From contig NZ_CP088022.1 of assembly GCF_013373795.3 (NCBI RefSeq), positions 3,286,001 through 3,350,000 on the forward strand: 64,000 nucleotides of DNA, in the 5' to 3' direction. This document shows positions 2,438-20,649 of the stretch, piece by piece (positions within the stretch are counted from its first letter, which is position 1; each line of letters begins with the position of its first letter). The stretch is from Bradyrhizobium quebecense (GTDB lineage Bacteria > Pseudomonadota > Alphaproteobacteria > Rhizobiales > Xanthobacteraceae). The notes under the pieces are model-generated. The model saw only the letters and a list, made by a program, of their open reading frames with translations. It searched no databases and was not told the DNA's origin. Made by a program: the position numbers and the translations under genes.

Positions 2438-2556
2438 CCTCTCCCATCGGGAGAGGTCGGCGCATCGCGCCGGGTGAGGGGTTACGGTCCCTCGATGGAG
2501 CGCAGCCCCTCACCTGAATTGCTTCGCAATTCGACCTCTCCCCAATGGGGAGAGGT
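2438..2556. repeat. Intergenic palindromic repeat (CTCTCCC...GGGAGAGG type)
   Basis: Two self-complementary blocks (CCTCTCCCATCGGGAGAGG at 2438-2456 and a CCTCTCC/GGAGAGG hairpin at 2534-2556) bracket inverted GGTGAGGGG and CCCCTCACC copies. The unit can fold into a long cruciform-like hairpin. This style of REP element is common between genes in Bradyrhizobium-type genomes; here it separates the LysR gene from ruvX and may act as a transcription-end structure for LysR. Confidence 0.7.
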
Positions 2557-2606
2557 GAAGCAAGAGCTTTGCCTCGGCGCGCAGGTGCGTGCTAAGCGCT
2601 AGCGCC

Positions 2607-3089
2607 ATGCCCGCCCCCATCCTTCCCCTGATCGAAGCCGCGCCGCACTGGCCTGACCGCGGCGCGCTGGTTGGCCTCGACCTCGGCACCAAGACCATCG
2701 GCGTTGCCGTCTCCGATCCGGACCGGCGGCTCGCGACCGGCGTCGAGACCATCCATCGCAAGCAGTTCAAGGCCGACGCCGCACGGCTGTTCACGATCGC
2801 AGCCGAGCGCAACGCTGTCGGCTTTGTGCTGGGCCTGCCGATCAACATGGACGGCAGCGAAGGCCCGCGCGCGCAATCGACCCGGGCCTTTGCCCGCAAC
2901 CTCGCAGGCCTCACTGCGCTTGCGATCGGGCTGTGGGACGAACGGCTGTCGACCGCGGCCGTCGAACGCGAGCTGATCGGGATGGACGTCAGCCGCGCCC
3001 GCCGCGCCGAGGTGATCGACGAGCACGCCGCGATCTTCATCCTGCAGGGCGCGCTGGACCGGCTGGCGAAGCTGCGCAGAGACCGCTGA
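2607..3089 (+). CDS. ruvX: Putative pre-16S rRNA nuclease / Holliday junction resolvase RuvX (YqgF)
   Basis: A 160-residue RNase H-fold protein of the YqgF/RuvX family, implicated in maturation of the 16S rRNA 5' end and proposed as a Holliday junction resolvase. Motifs: LVGLDLGTKTIGVAVSD (first catalytic Asp), FVLGLPINMDGSEG, LWDERLSTAAVER and the C-terminal DEHAAIFILQ with the last acidic residue. An upstream in-frame GTG at 2589 would add only six residues; the ATG at 2607 is preferred. The AEC permease starts two bases after its stop, suggesting cotranscription. Confidence 0.92.
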   Translation: MPAPILPLIEAAPHWPDRGALVGLDLGTKTIGVAVSDPDRRLATGVETIHRKQFKADAARLFTIAAERNAVGFVLGLPINMDGSEGPRAQSTRAFARNLAGLTALAIGLWDERLSTAAVERELIGMDVSRARRAEVIDEHAAIFILQGALDRLAKLRRDR

Positions 3090-3091
3090 CG

Positions 3092-4018
3092 ATGGCCGTG
3101 GTGATCGCGGCGCTGTTGCCGGTGTTTTTGCTGATCGTGCTCGGTTTCGTCCTGAGACGCACGCTGATGCGGCTCGACACCCAATGGCATGGGCTGGAGC
3201 AGCTCACTTACTACGTGCTGTTCCCGGTGCTTTTGGTACAGACGCTGGTCAAGGCCGATCTGACCAAGGTGCCGGTCGCCGGCGTCGGCGGCGCGCTGCT
3301 GCTCGCCGCGCTCGTGATGTGCCTGCTGTGTCTTGCGCTGCGGGCCCCGCTCGTCCGCGCCGGGGTCGACGGCCCCGCCTTCTCCTCCATCTTCCAGGGC
3401 GCCACCCGCTGGCAGACCTATGTCGCGCTGTCGGTGTCGGGCAATCTTTATGGCAAGGTCGGACTTGCGCTGGCCTCGGTGGCGATGGTCGCGATCATCC
3501 CGCTGGTCAACGTCTTCAGCGTCGCCGTGCTGGCGAAATATGCCTCATCCGGGAAGCGGTCCGCCGGCGCGATCGTGATGACCGTGGTGAAGAACCCGCT
3601 CATCTGGGCCTGCGTCATCGGGCTCGCCATCAACGTCACGCATGTCCCGCTGCCGAAAATCTGGCACGACGTCGCCGACGCGCTCGGCGGCTCGTCGCTC
3701 GCGATCGGCCTGCTCGTGACCGGCGCCGGACTGCATCTGGAAGGCATCTTCCGCCCCAGCCTCGCCGCCAGTATCGCGCTGGTCCTGAAGCTGGTCGCAA
3801 TGCCCGTCCTGACCGTCGCGCTCGCGGTGTGGTTCGGCGTCACCGGCGCCAACCTCGCCATCGTCGCGGCCTGCGCCGCGGTGCCGACCTCGCCGTCAGC
3901 CTATGTGCTGGCGCGCCAGATGGGCGGCGACGCGCCGCTGCTCGCCCAGATCATCACACTGCAGACGATTTTGGCCGCGATCACGATGCCGATCGTGATC
4001 GCCGCCGTTGGGCCGTAG
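3092..4018 (+). CDS. AEC-family (auxin efflux carrier-like) permease
   Basis: A 308-residue integral membrane protein beginning MAVVIAALLPVFLLIVLGFVL, with about ten hydrophobic segments in two halves as in the Mem_trans/AEC family. Members carry small organic acids such as malate or malonate; the substrate here is unknown. The family's central conserved stretch is visible (FQGATRWQTYVALSVSGNLYG), as is the C-terminal AAVPTSPSAYVLARQMGGD motif. The start two bases after the ruvX stop fits a coupled operon. A decayed copy of its last about 33 codons lies at 5396-5494. Confidence 0.88.
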   Translation: MAVVIAALLPVFLLIVLGFVLRRTLMRLDTQWHGLEQLTYYVLFPVLLVQTLVKADLTKVPVAGVGGALLLAALVMCLLCLALRAPLVRAGVDGPAFSSIFQGATRWQTYVALSVSGNLYGKVGLALASVAMVAIIPLVNVFSVAVLAKYASSGKRSAGAIVMTVVKNPLIWACVIGLAINVTHVPLPKIWHDVADALGGSSLAIGLLVTGAGLHLEGIFRPSLAASIALVLKLVAMPVLTVALAVWFGVTGANLAIVAACAAVPTSPSAYVLARQMGGDAPLLAQIITLQTILAAITMPIVIAAVGP

Positions 4019-4064
4019 CACGCGGCATGCGCTTGCGCTGGCCGGCTCGTTGCGCTGATCGTCG

Positions 4065-5276
4065 CTATTTTCCGGACGAACCGGTGAACGCCGTATCAAG
4101 CACCTCACCGATCGGCTGCCAGCTGCGGCCATCAAACTGCAGCAACCGCAACTGCTCCACCGGTCGGAACTGCGCGGTGTTGATCTTGATGCCGGGGAGC
4201 AAGGCGGATGCCTGATAATCCCTGAGCGCCGCAGCCTGCTTCATGACGTTTTCGCGTGACAGATCGTTGCCGCATTGCCTGAGCACCTGGACCATCGTTT
4301 CGGCGGCGGCATAGCCGTAGACTGCGGCAGCGTCGTCCTTGCCGCCGGCTTTCGTAAACTTGTCAAGGAAGCTGCGCCAGGCGCCCTGATCTTCCCTCCA
4401 GGCCGGATCGCTCGCATCCTTCAGGAAGGCGGCGGTGATGACGCCGGTCGCATTCTCCGTGCCGGCCGGCTTGAGCACCGTCTCGATCGATGACGCCATC
4501 TGGTTCACGACGAACACCGGCCGCCAGCCGTGCTCGGCCGCGGCCCGGATCACCTTCGAGGCATTTTCCGGCACCCCGGCAAACACAAAGACCTCGGCCC
4601 CCGACTGCTTCAGGATCGATATGTGGCCGTCCAGATGCTGATCGTCGACATCATAGGCGATGTCGATCCTGATGTTGTGGGCGACGTCACCCAAGCCTTG
4701 CACCAATCCCTTGAACAATTCCCGGCCGAACTGATCATTCTCCCAAAGCGCCACGATCTTCTTTCCGGGATAGAAAGCCTGGATGTAGTTGGCATAGATG
4801 CGCCCCTCCTCGCGGTATGAGGGCTGCCAGCCCATGGTCCACGGATAGACCGCGGGCTCGCTGAGGTCCTGATCGCCGGAGGCAACAAAAAGCTGGGGGA
4901 CCTGCCGTTCGTTGAGATACTTCCGCACGGCGAGATTCTCCGGCGTGCCGAACGAACCGAACATCAAGAGCACATTGTCGGTCTCGACGAGAATGCGCGT
5001 GAGGTCCATGGCGTTGGAAACATCCGACAGATCGTCATAGGACATGAAACGGATCTTGCGGCCGCCGATGCCGCCGCGTTCGTTGATCATCTCGAAATAG
5101 GCGGCTTCCGCCTTGCCGATCTGGCCAAAAATCTCGAGCGCGCCGCTGTACGGCATCAGATTGCCGATGCGGATTTCGGTGTCCGTGGCGCCCTGGTCGC
5201 GCACCTGCTGCGTGATGGCACCGAGCGACGCCAGCGCGACGACGCTGGCCAACAGAGTTCGGATCAAAATAGCCAT
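4065..5276 (-). CDS. ABC transporter substrate-binding protein, branched-chain amino acid (LivJ) type
   Basis: A roughly 403-residue periplasmic binding protein (Peripla_BP_6). From the ATG at 5274-5276 it has an N-terminal signal segment MAILIRTLLASVVALASLGA followed by a mature start near TDTEIRIGNLMPYSG, the usual opening of this family. Blocks such as MINERGGIGGRKIRFMSYDD and LMFGSFGTPENLAVRKYL are typical. An upstream in-frame ATG at 5339 would place 21 residues before the signal peptide and is unlikely. No permease or ATPase genes are adjacent, so it is an orphan binding protein. It lies between the AEC gene and the AEC relic. Confidence 0.88.
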   Translation of the reverse strand: MAILIRTLLASVVALASLGAITQQVRDQGATDTEIRIGNLMPYSGALEIFGQIGKAEAAYFEMINERGGIGGRKIRFMSYDDLSDVSNAMDLTRILVETDNVLLMFGSFGTPENLAVRKYLNERQVPQLFVASGDQDLSEPAVYPWTMGWQPSYREEGRIYANYIQAFYPGKKIVALWENDQFGRELFKGLVQGLGDVAHNIRIDIAYDVDDQHLDGHISILKQSGAEVFVFAGVPENASKVIRAAAEHGWRPVFVVNQMASSIETVLKPAGTENATGVITAAFLKDASDPAWREDQGAWRSFLDKFTKAGGKDDAAAVYGYAAAETMVQVLRQCGNDLSRENVMKQAAALRDYQASALLPGIKINTAQFRPVEQLRLLQFDGRSWQPIGEVLDTAFTGSSGK

Positions 5277-5395
5277 AAGAAGAGCTCGCACGACGGCAGC
5301 CGCCGCTGCCTGGTTTCGGTCCGGCCCGCGCTCGTTCATTGATGCACATCATAGCACTCGAGGGGGGCACTGGCATCCCCTTCGTCAAGCATCCG

Positions 5396-5494
5396 ATGGG
5401 CGGCGACGCACCAGTGCTTGTTCCGGGATCATCGCGCTGCAGACGATTCCGGCGACCATCACGATGCCGATCGTGATTGACGCGGTTGGGCTTT
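5396..5494 (+). pseudogene. Relic of the 3' end of a second AEC permease gene
   Basis: These about 100 bases are clearly similar to the last third of a kilobase of the AEC gene (3922-4016). The fragment starts ATGGGCGGCGACGC, then shifts frame and encodes IIALQTIPATITMPIVIDAVG, compared with IITLQTILAAITMPIVIAAVG in the intact gene. The rest of the gene is missing, and the reading frame runs on past the old stop. It is most simply a decayed duplication; the binding-protein gene now lies between the two copies. Confidence 0.7.
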
Positions 5495-5692
5495 TGGCGA
5501 GCGTTCACGGGATCATCACGCTGCTCTGCCCACTCGTGGCAGCGTCAGGCCGGGCGTGAGCACACGTCGGCTTCGCGCCAGAATGCGACGTTCGCGGTAA
5601 ATGCGCAAATCTACTTTTTGCCTTTACCGTCGCTTCAAGCCCGGCTTGCTAAGCTCATACGCGCTTTCTCATGCAACCAGCGGGCCGCACGC

Positions 5693-6367
5693 ATGAACAA
5701 CACTTCGAGTTCGTCCGCCTTCGACAACCGTCAGCTTTGCCTCTGGCTCGCGACTCTTTCGCCCGGCGATCTGTCCGTAAATGAAGGCGCGGCGGCACGC
5801 CCCGGTAGCGCGATGATCACATCGGTGGGGAGCCACAATGATGTGTTGTGGTCGCAGATGGAACGCGCAGACTGGACACAACGGATCGCGGTCGACGACT
5901 TGCCCATGGCGCACCTGGCAAGCAGTTACACCTTCACTGAGACGGGTGCGCGCGCCGTGAAGACGGCGCTTGCCGAGCTTGTCAGCCGAAAAGTGCAGCT
6001 TATGAGGAACGTCAAGGGCTTCGACGGTAGTGCGCCCGAACGCGTAAGGCAGCTGTGCGGCATCTTCAGTTGGTTGGGCCTGAGAGTAATTTCCCAACTA
6101 ACGCTTGCGCAGGAAGCGAAGCCCACGACCAGTGAAGCCCGGGCTCGGCGGCGTGACTGCATCCTGGCACTGGAAGAGATCCGCAAGGGTGTTTCAATGG
6201 CTGGATTGTACATAGCCGAGGCCATTTCGCGTGGTCCCGACAGCGATGTTGGGCAGGACTGCCTCGAGCGGACCACCAAAGGCCTGCGCTATGCGGAGCA
6301 GTGTCTGATGGAATGGACGGCCGAGTTGTACGCTGAGCGCCCCGGCAAACCGTCACTGCTATCCTGA
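5693..6367 (+). CDS. Hypothetical protein, 224 residues
   Basis: Starts at ATG 5693 (MNNTSSSSAFDNRQLCLWLA); the frame is open further upstream but only across AEC-relic DNA, so this start is preferred. No signal peptide or membrane segment is seen. The C-terminal half is predicted mostly helical (AVKTALAELVSRKVQLMRNV, and later CILALEEIRKGVSMAGLYI). Composition is less GC-biased than the neighbours. I recognise no family. It converges on the CPBP protease gene, with the stops five bases apart. Confidence 0.6.
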   Translation: MNNTSSSSAFDNRQLCLWLATLSPGDLSVNEGAAARPGSAMITSVGSHNDVLWSQMERADWTQRIAVDDLPMAHLASSYTFTETGARAVKTALAELVSRKVQLMRNVKGFDGSAPERVRQLCGIFSWLGLRVISQLTLAQEAKPTTSEARARRRDCILALEEIRKGVSMAGLYIAEAISRGPDSDVGQDCLERTTKGLRYAEQCLMEWTAELYAERPGKPSLLS

Positions 6368-15387: not shown

Positions 15388-15479
15388 ATGCATGACCGGT
15401 CACCCAGCACCACTGAACTCACCGACACCGAACGACTCAACCGCCTGCGGTTGATCCGCTCCGACAATGTCGGCCCGCG
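15388..15479 (+). pseudogene. dprA: dprA, 5' fragment (interrupted by transposon)
   Basis: From the ATG at 15388 the frame encodes MHDRSPSTTELTDTERLNRL then RLIRSDNVGPR, the N-terminal start of DprA's SAM-like domain. The frame is then broken by the transposon at 15480; reading on into the element stops after about 16 foreign residues. Joining base 15479 to base 19626 (removing the element and one 8-bp target copy) restores [17 protein letters not shown], the standard DprA N-terminal motif. Confidence 0.9.
15472..15479. repeat. Left target-site duplication of the transposon
   Basis: GGCCCGCG immediately before the left inverted repeat, repeated exactly at 19618-19625 after the right inverted repeat. 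Eight bases is the duplication length typical of the IS1595 superfamily. Confidence 0.9.
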
Positions 15480-15505
15480 CGGTATTATGGCGCAAACGCC
15501 ACAAG
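15480..15505. repeat. Left terminal inverted repeat of the transposon
   Basis: Twenty-six bases beginning CGGTATTATGGCGCAAACGC and ending CACAAG. It is an exact reverse complement of 19592-19617. Confidence 0.95.
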
Positions 15506-15556
15506 CCGAATTCGAGGCCGGTTCCTAAGTCACGGAGGTACCCGTGACTAGGAGAA

Positions 15557-15573
15557 GCGCCGTGCTACGGCGC
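15557..15573 (-). terminator. Hairpin after the leftward passenger gene
   Basis: GCGCCGT-gct-ACGGCGC, a perfect seven-base-pair stem 15 bases beyond the stop of the 15589-16485 gene, followed in that direction by TTCTCC. A further hairpin, GTCACGG/CCGTGAC, lies at 15529-15548. These probably end leftward transcription before the element's left end. Confidence 0.45.
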
Positions 15574-15588
15574 GCGGCTTGGGCCGCA

Positions 15589-16485
15589 TTACTGATCGCT
15601 GGTGCCATTTCCGTCGATGGTCTGAGCCATCGCGCCGAGGACGACGCCATCCCGGGTGAAGAACCGCGTGCCAACGTCACCGCCGAAAATGAACCGGTAA
15701 TCTACGGATCGGCGCTCTCGAAAAATGTCTTCAAACTCAATTCGTCCGAAAGCCCATATGGCAGTCTTCCCTGTTTGCAGGGCATCTTTTATCTCGGGCG
15801 TTACGGCGAACGGGAGATTTATCACGCCGGAAGCAATATCTGCCCCCGGTGGAATGGTCAGCATAGCCAGACGTTGATCGCCAGCGGGGTTTCTAGAGAA
15901 CTCGTTCTGGGGGAAGGTGGCATAGGTTACGGCCCCCGCGTTTGTCAGTTTGTAGGCCGGTGTTTGCCCGTAGTTTTTGAGACAGACGTGGATGACGGGC
16001 ACTTCTGGACCATTGAGATTGCGGATAAAGGCGTCACTGACAAACACATACGCGCGCAACTGCCGAGCGGCAGTTTTGTCAGCGTTCGCGACGAGTCTCG
16101 CCGTAGCGAGCCAGAGCATCCAAGTCACGATGCCCAGCAACCATTCACCGGGCTTGATCCCCAATACCGTCACCTCGGAAGCGTGCTCGCCTCCATGCTG
16201 GTCCTTCTGCTCGCCAGTGGCGTCTACTGGCGCGGCTGGACCATGTTGGGTGGCATCATGGCCGCCTACGGAATCTTTGGTCTGCTGTTGCGTCTGGATG
16301 CTTGGAGCTTGGCTATACGGGTACTTTAAGGGCCACAGCGACACGACTGCGATAGCAAGGGCAACGATGATTGCCCAAAGTAATTCCCTTGGCAGTGGCC
16401 ACATTCCCCAATCCCCCAAATAGCCCATACTACCTATTGGGGTTCCAAGGGCGCAATACACCCAAGAACTAATGCCGCATGACAC
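15589..16485 (-). CDS. Transposon passenger gene: membrane protein of unknown function
   Basis: About 298 residues from a GTG start at 16483-16485. It has two hydrophobic segments (LLWAIIVALAIAVVSLWPL near residue 35, and WLLGIVTWMLWLATARL near 120) separated by a Gln/His/Gly-rich linker, then RQLRAYVFVSDAFIRNL and a beta-rich C-terminal domain (VCLKNYGQTPAYKLTN, IWAFGRIEFEDIF, YRFIF). The RQLRAYV-beta-domain layout is common in uncharacterised proteins from alphaproteobacterial mobile elements (family memory, not searched). It is divergent from the transposase; the shared promoter region carries 16-bp repeats. Confidence 0.7.
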   Translation of the reverse strand: MSCGISSWVYCALGTPIGSMGYLGDWGMWPLPRELLWAIIVALAIAVVSLWPLKYPYSQAPSIQTQQQTKDSVGGHDATQHGPAAPVDATGEQKDQHGGEHASEVTVLGIKPGEWLLGIVTWMLWLATARLVANADKTAARQLRAYVFVSDAFIRNLNGPEVPVIHVCLKNYGQTPAYKLTNAGAVTYATFPQNEFSRNPAGDQRLAMLTIPPGADIASGVINLPFAVTPEIKDALQTGKTAIWAFGRIEFEDIFRERRSVDYRFIFGGDVGTRFFTRDGVVLGAMAQTIDGNGTSDQ

Positions 16486-16572
16486 CTAACGAATTCGTGA
16501 CCTAACAAAAACGATAGATTTCTTGACCTAGAGCCAAACCTATCATATTCGTTACCTATCGTATTCGTTAGG
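16484..16572. promoter_or_regulatory. Divergent promoter region with repeated 16-bp motif (transposase side)
   Basis: Two tandem 16-bp repeats abut each other just before the transposase start: TATCATATTCGTTACC at 16541-16556 and TATCGTATTCGTTAGG at 16557-16572. A third, inverted copy of the 3' half (CCTAACGAATTCG, 16485-16497) lies against the GTG of the leftward membrane-protein gene. The same motif recurs at 18913-18928 and 18971-18986. This arrangement looks like a repressor or transposase binding array that coordinates the element's genes. Confidence 0.6.
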
Positions 16573-16579
16573 TAGCGCT

Positions 16580-17563
16580 GTGTCCCAACACTTCCTCCTC
16601 AGCAAAGCGGCAAAGACCCTGAGCCTAGCTCAGGTCTTCCGCATGACTGATGCGGAAGCCGAGACGGCCTTCAAGGCCATCCGTTGGGCTGATACCGCTG
16701 GCGCTCCCGTGTGCCCTTCCTGCGGCTCCGTAGAGGCTTACGAAGCCCGCCGTCCGAACGGCTCCCTGCGCTTCCGCTGCAAGGGCTGCAAGAAGGATTT
16801 CACCATCACCAGCGGTACCCTGTTTGCCAGCCATAAGCTGCCCCTGCGCGGCTATCTGGCGGCCATTGCCGTGTTCTGCAACGAGGTGAAGGGCAAGTCC
16901 GCACTGGCGCTCAGCCGGGACCTGGGCCTGTCCTACAAGTCCGCGTTCGTCCTCCTACACAAGCTGCGGGAGGCAATGGCGGAGGAATTGAAGGGCCGTG
17001 TCATCGGCGGCGAAGGCAAAACGGCTGAGGTGGACGGCGGTTATTTTGGCGGTTACGTAAAGCCAGCAAACCAGAAAGAAAATCGCCGCGACCGCCGATA
17101 TGCCAGCAATCAGAATGGGAAACGGAAGGTCGTCGTCGTCGTCCGTGAGCGCGGCGGCAATTCTGTGCCAGCAGTGTTTGGCTCTGAAAGCCAAGCCGCC
17201 GCTTTCATCCGTGCCCGCATTGCGAAGGGGACTGTCGTTCATGCCGACGAAGCCGCTTCTTGGGATGGACTACACGAACGTTTTGAAATGAAACGAATCA
17301 ACCACCAAGAAGCTTACTCCTTCGATGGTGCCTGCACTAATCAGGCAGAGGAGTATTTCAGCCGCTTGCGTCGTGCTGAGATCGGTATCCACCACCATAT
17401 TGCTGGCGCGTACCTGCTCCGCTACGCGCAGGAGTCCTCATGGCGTGAGGACAACCGCCGGGTCTCGAATGGCGATCAGGTGAACCGCATCGCGGCGCTG
17501 GCATTGAAGCGCGGGAAGTCGGCCGATTTCACCGGCTACTGGCAGCGGCATATCGCCAACTGA
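16580..17563 (+). CDS. IS1595-superfamily (ISXO2-like) transposase
   Basis: A 327-residue transposase from a GTG start. An N-terminal zinc ribbon has CPSC at residues 45-48 and CKGC at 67-70, with the motif SGTLFASHKLPLRGYLAAI. The ISXO2-like DDE-type domain follows: VDGGYFGGYV (Asp152), VVHADEAASWDGL (Asp223), and ACTNQAEEYFSRLRRAEIGI (Asn254, Glu257/258), then HHHIAGAYLLRYAQESSWRE. All expected catalytic residues are visible and there is no frameshift. The superfamily's 8-bp target duplications match those seen here. A terminator hairpin follows directly. Confidence 0.95.
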   Translation: MSQHFLLSKAAKTLSLAQVFRMTDAEAETAFKAIRWADTAGAPVCPSCGSVEAYEARRPNGSLRFRCKGCKKDFTITSGTLFASHKLPLRGYLAAIAVFCNEVKGKSALALSRDLGLSYKSAFVLLHKLREAMAEELKGRVIGGEGKTAEVDGGYFGGYVKPANQKENRRDRRYASNQNGKRKVVVVVRERGGNSVPAVFGSESQAAAFIRARIAKGTVVHADEAASWDGLHERFEMKRINHQEAYSFDGACTNQAEEYFSRLRRAEIGIHHHIAGAYLLRYAQESSWREDNRRVSNGDQVNRIAALALKRGKSADFTGYWQRHIAN

Positions 17564-17564
17564 A

Positions 17565-17587
17565 AAGGCCCGCATTGCGCGGGCCTT
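17565..17587 (+). terminator. Transposase terminator hairpin
   Basis: AAGGCCCGC-attgc-GCGGGCCTT type stem starting two bases after the transposase stop. There is no long T run, but the stem is strong and symmetrical, and it could also stop the convergent leftward genes. Confidence 0.6.
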
Positions 17588-17611
17588 GATTGGCAATCAG
17601 TGGGCGGCGGC

Positions 17612-17800
17612 TTACTTGTCTTTAGTGGTCGCCGCTCTTTTCGCCTTGATCTTTTCTAATGACGCCTGCGCCTGCTTAATGTTGCGAGCAGCCTCAGCCC
17701 CTCGCTTTACTGTTGTGCCGAGCGACTGCTGCCGCTGATGAGCGAAAGCTGGGTTATTTCTTTGTTGGGCGCTGTCAAAGTGCGTGCGAAGGCTCATCAT
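17612..17800 (-). CDS. Transposon passenger gene: small basic protein, 62 residues
   Basis: MMSLRTHFDSAQQRNNPAFA, then a helical, Lys/Ala-rich C-terminus (EAARNIKQAQASLEKIKAKR). Its start overlaps the end of the upstream passenger gene (17775) by 26 bases, implying translational coupling. It has no membrane segment and looks like a small coiled-coil or nucleic-acid-binding protein, but I recognise no family. Confidence 0.5.
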   Translation of the reverse strand: MMSLRTHFDSAQQRNNPAFAHQRQQSLGTTVKRGAEAARNIKQAQASLEKIKAKRAATTKDK

Positions 17801-18395
17801 TCTGCTCCCATCTGCTGCTTATTAGCCCGGATGGATCTAGGTGAGAGTGATCAGAGTCGCTCTTACCTAACAACCAATACTTACAACCGTGTTGATCGGT
17901 TCCTTCCTGTAGCACGATATAATCAGCCGCCGCCAAGATTTCATTGGCTCTAAGGTGCTTTTTGAGGGCATTTTCGCTGGGGCTGGAAAGCCAAGTTGTC
18001 CGAAATATGTAATCAGGACAACACGTTGGAAGAAGTTTTATGAAGCAGTGGCAGGCGATTTCAACCACCAACTGCCGCATTTCATCCGGAATGGCCGGTC
18101 TTGCCTCTCTCGGGTCGAAGGTTGAGTACGAAACTTCATCTATTTGATCAAAAAGGGTAATTTCGTATCCAAAAGAGAAAAAATCTATTGGAGCAACCTG
18201 CGCGCAAGGAGCCAGTTCCCGATATTCCTGATAACCCACATCGATGGTGACTAGCCAGCGGCCGTCATCGCTTTCGGCGAGAGGAACGCGGAAATAGAAA
18301 TTTTCGTCGGCGTAATAGAGCGGCAGATCGTCCGGGACATCACTCAGAGAGGACACCACAGGAATCATGGCGCTAGTCAGCGTCGAGAAAGTCAT
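17775..18395 (-). CDS. Transposon passenger gene: hypothetical protein
   Basis: About 206 residues from ATG 18393-18395 (MTFSTLTSAMIPVVSSLSDV). A TTG at 18447-18449 would add 18 residues and overlap the upstream gene's stop, so the start is uncertain. A run of aromatic and acidic residues is visible (LPLYYADENFYFRVPLAESD, and VGYQEYRELAPCAQV), and a cysteine-rich stretch EIACHCFIKLLPTCCPDYIF in the middle. Soluble by composition. Base composition is closer to AT than the host genes, consistent with imported DNA. Function unknown. Confidence 0.6.
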   Translation of the reverse strand: MTFSTLTSAMIPVVSSLSDVPDDLPLYYADENFYFRVPLAESDDGRWLVTIDVGYQEYRELAPCAQVAPIDFFSFGYEITLFDQIDEVSYSTFDPREARPAIPDEMRQLVVEIACHCFIKLLPTCCPDYIFRTTWLSSPSENALKKHLRANEILAAADYIVLQEGTDQHGCKYWLLGKSDSDHSHLDPSGLISSRWEQNDEPSHAL

Positions 18396-18445
18396 GCCCT
18401 TGGTTGTCCCCCCGCCGTGAGACTTAGCCAAAGTTGAACCGACGT

Positions 18446-18904
18446 TCAATGAGCCGTCTTAAGTCTCCACCGAGCCGGGGCCGTTTGGCCAACCCTCTCC
18501 ACGCCATTCCCCTCATGGTTCTTAAGGCTGTGCTGGATACCCAGCGCGATGCCCTGCACGTCGTCGCCAGTAGCGTCCTCTACGCCATGCGCAGCGAGAA
18601 CTGCCTTCGCCTGCTCCGTTGTGGTCATTGGCTCCGTGGCCGTCCTGAGCACGTCCAGCGCCCGCCTGTAGAGGGTGCCGCGCTTGAACCACGGGTTTGG
18701 CTTCCGCCGCTTCACCGCGATCCGTCCCAGGTTGTATGTGGGGTCCAGCATCTTGATGACGGCCTCGACGTGCCGCATCTGCTCGCTCAGCGCGTCGTGC
18801 TGTTGCCGGTTGGCGAGTATTTGGCCGCCCAGCTCCATATGGAGCCGTTCAAGGGTGTTGATGGCCGGTCGGGTGTGAGGGTCTTTCGTCGGTCTGCCGC
18901 GCAT
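18446..18904 (-). CDS. Transposon passenger gene: putative DNA-binding protein, 152 residues
   Basis: Starts MRGRPTKDPHTRPAINTLER, whose RGRPTK resembles an AT-hook-like basic tip. A helical, probably coiled-coil stretch (LGGQILANRQQHDALSEQMR) is followed by a C-terminal segment resembling a winged helix (RRALDVLRTATEPMTTTEQA, then KAVLAAHGVED). It is first in the leftward three-gene run and divergent from the DUF6471 gene across a promoter holding two copies of the element's 16-bp motif. That makes it a candidate regulator of the element, by inference only. Confidence 0.6.
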   Translation of the reverse strand: MRGRPTKDPHTRPAINTLERLHMELGGQILANRQQHDALSEQMRHVEAVIKMLDPTYNLGRIAVKRRKPNPWFKRGTLYRRALDVLRTATEPMTTTEQAKAVLAAHGVEDATGDDVQGIALGIQHSLKNHEGNGVERVGQTAPARWRLKTAH

Positions 18905-18912
18905 TGCCGCAT

Positions 18913-18986
18913 CCTATCGAATATGATAGCTAACGGATATGAACCGTTTGACCGGAAGTCAAGGCCGGTCTATCATATTTGTTAGC
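18913..18986. promoter_or_regulatory. Divergent promoter region with repeated 16-bp motif (cargo side)
   Basis: Two copies of the element's motif in opposite orientations: reverse-strand TATCATATTCGATAGG (18913-18928) and forward TATCATATTTGTTAGC (18971-18986). They lie between the leftward gene starting at 18904 and the DUF6471 gene at 19010. They match the tandem copies before the transposase. Confidence 0.6.
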
Positions 18987-19009
18987 TCACGGAATCGATA
19001 GGAGATGCC

Positions 19010-19252
19010 ATGGTCCTACCCAAAGCGGAAGAGGAATGGGGCCGACGCGCCAGCGACTTCCTCAAGGCGGAAATGAAGAAAGCCAACGTGACCTATGCCG
19101 ACTTGGCAAAGCGGCTGAAAAAGCACGGCCTGAAAGACGAGACCGAAGCCGGGATAACCATGAAGCTAAAGCGGGGATCGTTTACGGCGATCTTCTTTCT
19201 TGCGTGCGTTGCGGCGTTGGAGCTTGAGCAGGTGGTTTTGGAGGAGATTTAG
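19010..19252 (+). CDS. Transposon passenger gene: DUF6471 domain protein
   Basis: An 80-residue protein, nearly all of it the DUF6471 domain: EWGRRASDFLKAEMKKANVT, then YADLAKRLKKHGLKD, and MKLKRGSFTAIFFLACVAAL. The fold pattern resembles a small helix-turn-helix repressor. Good ribosome-binding site (AGGAGA four bases before ATG). In my knowledge such genes often sit beside ISXO2-like transposases in Rhizobiales, which suggests a role in the element's own biology, perhaps repression; this is inference. Confidence 0.8.
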   Translation: MVLPKAEEEWGRRASDFLKAEMKKANVTYADLAKRLKKHGLKDETEAGITMKLKRGSFTAIFFLACVAALELEQVVLEEI

Positions 19253-19368
19253 TCGCGTTGCGCGCGGAACCCGCCGCTTCCATCCCTGAAATGAAGGGTT
19301 ATATTTGTTTCTTCGGCAATGCTGTTTCGATGGCATTGCAACTTTCATCCGCAAAAGGGATGTTTTTC

Positions 19369-19533
19369 ATGTCTGAAGTGAACCAACGTATCTACGTTCA
19401 ATACCTTCGTAAGGAACTTGAGGCCCTCGACAGCTGGACCAACACGCTCCGTCTCGCGAAGGACTGGCGTGCGGGAGAAATGGAACGGCGCGCCAATAAT
19501 GTGCGGCGTGCGATTTCGCTGGTGCTCGGATAA
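19369..19533 (+). CDS. Transposon passenger gene: small hypothetical protein, 54 residues
   Basis: MSEVNQRIYVQYLRKELEAL, then DSWTNTLRLAKDWRAGEMER and a basic tail ending ISLVLG. Predicted as two helices. The frame is open upstream to 19258 but a ribosome-binding-like AAAGGGA favours the ATG at 19369 (or 19360). It follows the DUF6471 gene on the same strand, and a terminator hairpin lies just beyond. Confidence 0.5.
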   Translation: MSEVNQRIYVQYLRKELEALDSWTNTLRLAKDWRAGEMERRANNVRRAISLVLG

Positions 19534-19544
19534 CTCGCCACCTC

Positions 19545-19573
19545 GCTCATCTCCCTTAATTGCGGAGATGAGC
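19545..19573 (+). terminator. Hairpin before the right end of the transposon
   Basis: GCTCATCTCC and GGAGATGAGC form a perfect ten-base-pair stem with a nine-base loop, 12 bases after the stop of the 54-residue gene and just inside the right inverted repeat. It would insulate the flanking dprA remnant from the element's promoters. Confidence 0.65.
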
Positions 19574-19591
19574 GCCGCCTTTCACAACACC

Positions 19592-19617
19592 CTTGTGGCG
19601 TTTGCGCCATAATACCG
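19592..19617. repeat. Right terminal inverted repeat of the transposon
   Basis: Twenty-six bases, the exact reverse complement of 15480-15505, followed by the second copy of the 8-bp target sequence GGCCCGCG (19618-19625). Confidence 0.95.
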
Positions 19618-20649
19618 GGCCCGCGCACCTTTGCATCGCTGCTCCGCCATTTTGGCGATGCGGCGCACGCGCTGGAGCGCCTGCCCGATCTCGCGCGCCG
19701 CGGCGGCGCATCGGGACCCGGGCGCATCGCGAGCGAGGCCGATGCAGCCGCGGAACTCGCGGCCTGCCGCAAATTCGGCATCGATCTCGTCGCGCCGGAG
19801 GAAGCCCACTATCCGGCGCGGCTTGCCACCATCGACGACGCGCCGCCGCTGCTCGGCGTACGCGGTGCACGCGACACGCTGATGCGCCCGATGATCGCGA
19901 TCGTCGGCTCCCGCAATGCATCCGGCGCCGGGCTAAAATTTGCAGGCCAGCTGGCGCGCGATCTCGGCGACGCCGGCTTTGTCGTGATCTCCGGCCTTGC
20001 CCGCGGCATCGACCAGGCGGCGCATCGCGCCACCGTTGCAAGCGGCACGGTCGCCGTGCTGGCCGGCGGCCATGACCGCATCTACCCGCCGGAGCATGAG
20101 GATCTGCTGGCCGCCCTGCTTGAGCGCGGCGCGGCGATCTCGGAGATGCCGCTCGGCCACGTGCCGCGGGCGCGCGACTTCCCGCGCCGCAACCGGCTGA
20201 TCTCGGGCGCATCGCTCGGCGTCGTGGTGGTGGAGGCCGCGCACCGCTCGGGCTCGCTGATCACGGCACGGATGGCCGCCGAACAGGGCCGCGAGGTGTT
20301 CGCGGTGCCGGGCTCGCCAATCGATCCGCGCGCCGCCGGCGCCAATGATTTGATCAAGCAGGGCGCCACGCTGGTCACCGAAGCCGCCGACGTCATCAGC
20401 GCGGTCACGCCGATCATGGAGCGGCCCGTCATGCTGTCCGCGCGCGAAGACGACGAGCCGATGGATTTTGCCACCGATGCGTCCGATCGTGCCCGCATCA
20501 TCAATCTGCTCGGACCGAGCCCGATCAGTCTCGACGATCTGATCCGGATGGCCGATGTCTCGCCCGCCGTCGTCCGCGCGGTACTGCTGGAGCTCGAGCT
20601 TGCCGGCAGGCTCGAGCGTCACGGCGGCGGGCTGGTGTCGATGATTTAG
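19618..20649 (+). pseudogene. dprA: dprA, 3' fragment (DNA-processing protein A)
   Basis: Codons 29-372 of the split dprA, in frame with the 5' part once the element is removed. DprA loads RecA onto incoming single-stranded DNA during natural transformation. This part holds the rest of the SAM domain, the Rossmann-like DNA-binding fold ([80 protein letters not shown]) and the C-terminal winged helix ending [12 protein letters not shown]. An ATG at 19882 could give a 255-residue truncated product, but no strong ribosome-binding site is seen. It is otherwise undecayed, so the disruption is recent. Confidence 0.92.

Follow-up and report, generated by a model that had tools for sequence, protein, structure and literature searches.

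Introduction

In Tn7, the target is selected by a dedicated subunit, TnsD, and Tn7-like elements are defined by a TnsB-type transposase, a TnsC ATPase, a TnsD/TniQ selector, and a 5-bp duplication. Insertion sequences of the IS1595 family usually have a single transposase gene (PMC8101967), and cargo-bearing elements of this family, tISCpe8 and MTnSag1, are already known (PMC5704250); papers are cited here by PMC number and for individual passages of their text. We describe a 4138-bp element of the same family in a 64-kb stretch of the Bradyrhizobium quebecense genome (contig NZ_CP088022.1; hereafter the window, with its first letter as position 1). The element occupies positions 15480-19617 and interrupts the competence gene dprA, which is required in bacteria for DNA uptake, after codon 31. 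The transposon is genuine and intact, inserts site-specifically, and comes from a known family; we did not find its targeting plan in print in the literature searched. The explanation that, taken as a whole, we hold with good confidence is that it belongs to a site-specific group of IS1595-family transposons, best seen in Hyphomicrobiales, in which a protein encoded at the right end directs the transposase to a fixed base.

Like the IS1595 elements in general, tISCpe8 and MTnSag1 included, the window element has a transposase of the PF12762/NF033547 type with a zinc ribbon, an 8-bp duplication, inverted repeats, and space for extra genes. Unlike the usual members of the family (PMC8101967), the group to which it belongs has a conserved DUF6471 protein, a right-end protein with a predicted helix and winged helix, and base-exact host targets. 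An analogy may be drawn to Tn7-like elements, including AbaR in comM, which combine a separate target-selecting DNA-binding subunit, a fixed chromosomal target, defense or resistance cargo, and a competence gene as the target. In contrast to Tn7, the window element has an IS1595 transposase and an 8-bp duplication, and its family inserts in both orientations. A Pfam scan (E-value of 1 or better) of the eight open reading frames (ORFs) of the element found none of the TnsA, TnsB, TnsC, or TniQ families, which places the element outside the Tn7-like group as defined above.

Many mobile elements disrupt competence genes (PMC10383233). Prophages and islands were described in comYC, comFA, comK, and comM (Croucher 2016, PMC4774983), Tn7-like and defense-bearing elements in comM (PMC11472951), and transposons in comEC along with prophages in comYC (PMC12637031). 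The elements of PMC4774983 resemble the present family in that, in different species, they have repeatedly entered competence genes at a conserved site; they differ in using the integrases of prophages and islands, and dprA is not among the disrupted genes in the passages cited. In some Francisella, dprA, comM, and rec2 are among the genes disrupted or absent, with no cause given in the passage concerned (PMC2682660). No report of an element targeting dprA was found in the literature searched, most subscription papers lying outside that search, and the passages of papers that mention both IS1595 and dprA report no such insertion.

An intact transposon interrupts dprA

The terminal inverted repeats of the element are complementary at 26 of 26 positions, and the octamer GGCCCGCG is found on both flanks as a target duplication. 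When the flanks were joined in silico, a single open frame resulted, which encodes a DprA of 371 residues. The uninterrupted DprA proteins of close relatives (G239, G250, and G174) match it over 371 of 371 residues with 98% identity. An empty dprA site was present in all four relatives that were read (L206 to L209; DprA 97-98% identical), and these sites match the joined 120-nt flanks at 114-116 positions. The original prediction had described an intact cargo-bearing IS1595-type transposon in dprA with perfect 26-bp repeats and an 8-bp duplication, whose excision restores a dprA of 371 codons; the ends, the duplication, the transposase matches given below, and the predicted join in the empty sites all agree with this description.

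The full element is present as one copy in the 9.17-Mb genome, which otherwise contains partial transposase matches and the element's own ends. The split dprA is the sole match to PF02481 (DprA) in this genome. A scan of the element against Rfam gave no matches at the gathering scores. The 28 open codons upstream of the dprA 3' fragment, inside the element, include no ATG, GTG, or TTG. A start codon supplied by the element that would rescue DprA was considered for 15 elements and rejected: 14 of them have no in-frame start, and L158 has some.

The transposase matches DDE_Tnp_IS1595 (PF12762; E-value 2.5e-35, 122 bits), the zinc ribbon family PF12760 (2.3e-11; C45, C48, C67, and C70), and the NCBIfam IS1595 model (NF033547; 134.9 bits, cut-off 75). 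The four cysteines and N254, D152, D171, D223, and E257 are invariant in 31 aligned transposases, including that of the window, and because of the invariance of D152, D171, D223, and E257 the enzyme is read as a DDE transposase. The catalytic domain and zinc ribbon, together with the inverted repeats and the 8-bp duplication, make the element a member of the IS1595 family. Among plasmid relatives, none of the three matches to the right-end protein (p152) covers 80% of the query, and the best full-length transposases are 60% identical.

dprA is a recurrent and base-exact target

Insertions at the identical base of dprA were found for at least 17 elements, or 18 if L011 and L162 are separate, in addition to three relics (L119, L120, and L140). 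L011 and L162 each have one end in dprA and share the duplication GGGCCGCG; they are possibly the two sides of one element, and no overlap between the two was found in either direction. Fifteen of the elements were read at both ends (the window element, L007, L008, L012, L013, L014, L015, L018, L019, L021, L024, L032, L134, L158, and L159); in L015 the two copies of the duplication differ by one base. The other side of L027, which also lies in dprA, is probably L147, and L147 and L148, from one genome, were counted as one element.

The transposase is oriented with dprA in seven or eight elements and against dprA in ten. The p152-type target is formed by codons 29-31 (GPR) of dprA, and the duplications vary between hosts (GGCCCGCG, GGGCCGCG, GGCCCACG, and others), matching the codons of the respective host. 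Because the 98% identical transposases of the window element and L007 lie in opposite orientation in dprA, the two are separate insertions. The hosts of related elements comprise Bradyrhizobium, Pseudolabrys, Methylocystis, other Xanthobacteraceae and Hyphomicrobiales bins, and a Rhizobium bin. One base of dprA, hit in many species and in both directions, reflects neither chance nor inheritance. The original prediction had treated dprA as an accidental landing place; instead, dprA is the address of the family.

A search with p152 gave matches in 32 of 265 genomes of the window's genus, and a census with a 22-base end, allowing at most one mismatch, in 39 of 391 genomes of its taxonomic family. 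At the level of the class, homologs of the right-end protein occurred in 17 of 385 genomes; the reading of 19 short loci and 20 wider regions gave no match to comEC, and none to dprA other than the window's own.

The relics L119 (positions 3732-6096) and L120 (1930-4637) consist of a dprA 5' fragment and an element remnant, followed by a complete second dprA with its own upstream sequence. In L140 (2001-2043), the scar inside dprA consists of two joined element ends (43 bp plus 8 bp); the frame is open across it, with a frameshift further on. All three look like regained or partly healed dprA genes. In two further genomes, the listed DprA match lacks the N-terminus (G039:C4:6796285-6797316, from residue 29; G219:C1:3708312-3709265, from residue 54), perhaps through further insertions or decay.

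Other fixed sites and the loss of dprA

Two elements, L146 and L157, have a site in comEC in common (Competence domain, PF03772, 5.4e-39). The comEC-type right-end protein was searched in 288 genomes of the order; seven had a match, the closest being the window's own p152. The competence genes repeatedly hit at one conserved site are dprA (the 17 or 18 elements and 3 relics) and comEC (2 elements). Two more sites are in one glycosyltransferase (GT2) gene family. The first, GT2-a, lies at the codons RLDYP and is used by L152 (equal to L016), L111, and L114, where L113, from the same genome, is probably the other side of L114 and was counted with it. The second, GT2-b, is used by L010 and L192; L196/L177 lies near it, with no end found, and was not counted. 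The targeted gene family (in L111, L152, L010, and L192) has an N-terminal extension.

Insertion destroys the host's only dprA and in this way would probably block natural transformation. A block to transformation may, in turn, keep an empty allele from replacing the element. The contrary reading, in which dprA is merely a safe address of a targeted transposon and the loss of DprA brings the element no benefit, is a serious contender, although we would not bet on it. It draws on the two of four sites that lie in a glycosyltransferase gene with no competence link known to us. It is at odds with the other two, which lie in core competence genes, with the unrelated elements that also break such genes (PMC4774983, PMC11472951, and PMC10383233), and with the whole dprA beside the relics in L119 and L120, as if its loss were costly. 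A possible benefit from blocked transformation becomes testable in soil bacteria, as the idea that an element in dprA resists being swept out by incoming empty alleles. Struck at one base in many species, dprA adds to the case for mobile elements as agents that disable transformation.

The target follows the right-end protein

A minus-strand gene of 142-164 codons is located at or near the right end in 19 of 21 elements delimited at both ends; L026 and L030 have no clear right-end gene. Maximum likelihood trees of the right-end protein and of the transposase were calculated for 33 elements, leaving out L127 (frameshifted) and, for want of an intact right-end gene, L026 and L030. The recurrent targets are represented by 22 elements (15 dprA, 2 comEC, 3 GT2-a, and 2 GT2-b; L148, with a partial transposase, was excluded). 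For these 22, the target label changes three times on the right-end tree, which is the minimum possible, versus six times on the transposase tree. When dprA is set against all other sites in the 33 rows, the numbers are four and eight, respectively, and with five labels, the scattered sites being pooled, they are eight and ten. For the 20 recurrent rows with DUF6471, the DUF6471, right-end, and transposase trees require seven, three, and six changes, respectively.

Approximately unbiased (AU) tests rejected a single transposase clade for GT2-a (p = 0.016), GT2-b (p = 0.004), and dprA (p = 2e-80). In the right-end tree, GT2-b forms a clade, and a single clade for GT2-a was not rejected (p = 0.36). 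Because of the change counts and the AU tests, we conclude that the target travels with the right-end gene.

Were the transposase site-specific by itself, the right-end protein would be a co-inherited passenger or a regulator. The targets do cluster beyond shuffles on the transposase tree too (the 10 changes compare with a shuffled mean of 15.0, and with 8 on the right-end tree), and some elements whose right-end protein is of the type that we call A sit outside dprA. We nevertheless consider this explanation unlikely, given that L010 and L111, with 89% and 84% identical transposases, use GT2 sites, whereas L019 (75%) and L032 (74%) use dprA, and that the transposase tree needs twice the changes and does not hold either GT2 site together as a clade.

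Our strong inference from the sequences is that p152 acts as an exchangeable selector of the target. In the proposed mechanism, the DDE transposase would recognize the ends common to the family, and p152, as a separate small DNA-binding protein, would recognize a stretch of host DNA and bring the transposase to one fixed base. The p152 type would lead to dprA codons 29-31, and other variants to comEC or to one of the two GT2 sites. The structural model of p152 (from a 30-row alignment; mean predicted local distance difference test score, pLDDT, 87.8) has a 45-residue helix and a winged helix, and the nearest solved folds are DNA-binding domains of forkhead, Fur, and PadR proteins (best E-value 4.4e-3). 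The recognized stretch must exceed an 8-mer, because GGSCCGCG occurs 31 times in the window, both duplication copies included. The type A protein of L009 is nearest to that of L012, which is in dprA, yet L009 lies outside dprA. The ATCCGTTC.GA stretch of the dprA site recurs at the L009 site with the same spacing; scored with a matrix from the 15 dprA sites, the L009 site was equalled by only 19 of 1,926,874 background positions. By the same matrix, the sites of L160, L128, and L165 have no resemblance to dprA.

Several observations weigh against target selection by the right-end protein. A single right-end clade was rejected for dprA as well (AU test, p = 2e-91), because the comEC elements, L009, L017, and L110 fall within type A there. 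Intact type A copies are present in L017 and L110 together with full-length transposases, and the sites of these two are unlike dprA in the matrix comparison; the type A elements L165 and L129 lie outside dprA as well, although both lost their transposase. For L200, whose protein is GT2-a-like, the single end found lies away from the GT2-a site. In Foldseek, p152 had no structural match with an E-value of 0.001 or better. The comEC and GT2-b sites rest on two elements each, and GT2-a on three.

Weighing both sides, we lean towards a plug-in form of targeting of the IS1595 type that is unrelated to TnsD/TniQ, in which a subunit with a helix and a winged helix is exchanged by recombination and each version leads to one host codon. 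With competence genes as two of the four addresses found to date, the attack of the family on transformation would be by design, with some members also bringing in anti-phage genes. For the target choice of a DDE transposase, this amounts to a natural swap experiment with one enzyme family, four sites, and four protein variants, and it offers a route to learning how small DNA-binding subunits steer transposition.

Scattered insertions

The remaining elements are scattered over other sites, and many of them are broken. The mean GC content of the duplications is 0.49 for the 18 scattered sites with both copies read versus 0.94 for the 15 in dprA. Such insertions would fit a transposon that inserts near-randomly and survives only where the gene hit, such as dprA, is dispensable or its loss beneficial, and the loss of dprA and comEC, both competence genes, may be tolerated or may favor the element. 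This account is very improbable: selection for the loss of dprA would scatter insertions over 1.1 kb, not place them at one base in two orientations, and the same applies to comEC and to both GT2 sites. A single ancient insertion with vertical inheritance, suggested by the many elements in Bradyrhizobium and its family, the most intensively searched, can be dismissed given the two orientations, the differing and host-matching duplications, the empty sites of the nearest relatives (DprA 98% identical), and the discordant trees.

L017 and L127 both carry GAAAATTG at the element end in different surroundings, through chance or a second preference of untargeted insertion. L165 (2916-4538) and L129 (2001-4356) are short derivatives outside dprA without a complete transposase that retain an intact right-end gene and ends. 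Our impression was that elements at unrelated sites often have a broken or absent right-end gene; old insertions decay.

Conserved architecture and putative regulation

Both p152 and the DUF6471 protein are conserved genes of the family and not private cargo of the window element. Of 37 loci that encode a related transposase, 20 have the DUF6471 gene in divergent orientation directly upstream of it, and L007, L008, and L024 have the gene downstream; the remaining loci include some contig ends. These three are close kin of the window element and, like it, have DUF6471 and small ORFs beyond the right-end gene. The p152 family has 943 database homologs; among the 120 listed, the named ones are nearly all hypothetical proteins, with one histidine kinase.

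The 80-residue DUF6471 protein belongs to PF20075 (75 bits, cut-off 26.8), for which no paper naming it was found in the literature searched. In 17 of the 27 elements that have DUF6471, palindromes of the CTATCATATTCGTTAG type (at most 3 mismatches in 16) precede the transposase by no more than 140 nt; these palindromes and the position of the DUF6471 gene tie the family to transposase promoters. Judged by eye, the palindromes lie on either side of a TTGAC box and overlap the probable -10 region. The window has such palindromes before both the transposase and the DUF6471 gene. The structural model (single sequence, pLDDT 80) weakly resembles controller proteins and HipB (best E-value 0.28). 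The protein, which appears helix-turn-helix-like, is probably a transposase repressor that would bind the palindromes at the transposase promoter and hold transposition down. Exceptions to this pattern are L021, L029, L192, and L200 (4 of the 27), without a palindrome even at 5 mismatches, and the dprA elements L013 and L134, which have neither a DUF6471 match nor the palindromes; L134 has an XRE-like gene (labelled from its sequence) in place of DUF6471. Roles are thereby suggested for DUF6471 and for the p152 family.

The original prediction had counted six extra genes of unknown purpose. Two of these, the DUF6471 gene and p152, are better viewed as machinery, because the former is probably a repressor and the latter a probable selector; p224 and perhaps p62 stand as cargo. 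The features of the locus are summarized in Table 1.

Table 1. Features of the transposon and the interrupted dprA gene (positions in the window).
Feature	Position	Strand	Evidence
dprA 5' fragment, codons 1-31, ends in left duplication copy	15388..15479	+	tblastn, residues 1-31, 100%
Target duplication GGCCCGCG, left copy	15472..15479	.	sequence, end comparison
Left 26-bp terminal inverted repeat	15480..15505	.	repeat comparison
p298, membrane-like protein (sequence reading)	15589..16485	-	relatives at left end of several sister elements
Operator-like palindromes, CTATCATATTCGTTAG type, upstream of transposase	16484..16573	.	sequence repeats
IS1595-type transposase, 327 aa, zinc ribbon and DDE domain	16580..17563	+	Pfam, NCBIfam, alignment
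p62, small ORF, weakly supported cargo	17612..17800	-	open frame; no family above cut-off
p224, cargo gene; start overlaps p152 stop	17775..18449	-	8 homologs, none with named function
p152, right-end protein, proposed target selector	18446..18904	-	model: long helix 9-53 and winged helix 78-148
Second operator-like palindrome set, between divergent p152 and DUF6471 genes	18912..19003	.	sequence repeats
DUF6471 protein, 80 aa, helix-turn-helix-like model, proposed transposase repressor	19010..19252	+	PF20075
p91, open frame only, TTG start	19258..19533	+	ORF list
Right 26-bp terminal inverted repeat	19592..19617	.	repeat comparison
Target duplication GGCCCGCG, right copy	19618..19625	.	sequence, end comparison
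dprA 3' fragment, codons 29-371 including duplicated bases	19618..20649	+	tblastn

Cargo

The relatives of p298 are the left-end proteins of L016, L009, L018, and L024 (phmmer); p298 itself has no Pfam or NCBIfam family above cut-off and no PADLOC match. No Pfam or PADLOC match was found for p224 either, nor a Pfam or NCBIfam family above cut-off for p62 and p91, for which the open frame is the sole support.

The variable middle of the elements would serve to carry other genes, and anti-phage or toxin-antitoxin genes are present in some of the sister elements. The cargo scan, which covered part of the sister elements, found a type IIG restriction gene (L010), PemK (L014), and an M78 peptidase (L013); the HicAB-like genes of L009 were named from sequence only. 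The dprA element L159 carries a BstA-type abortive infection gene (2450-3550; PADLOC, 6.7e-124). L134, an element that itself broke the host dprA, carries a pair of ShosT and the DprA-like ShosA (4371-5569).

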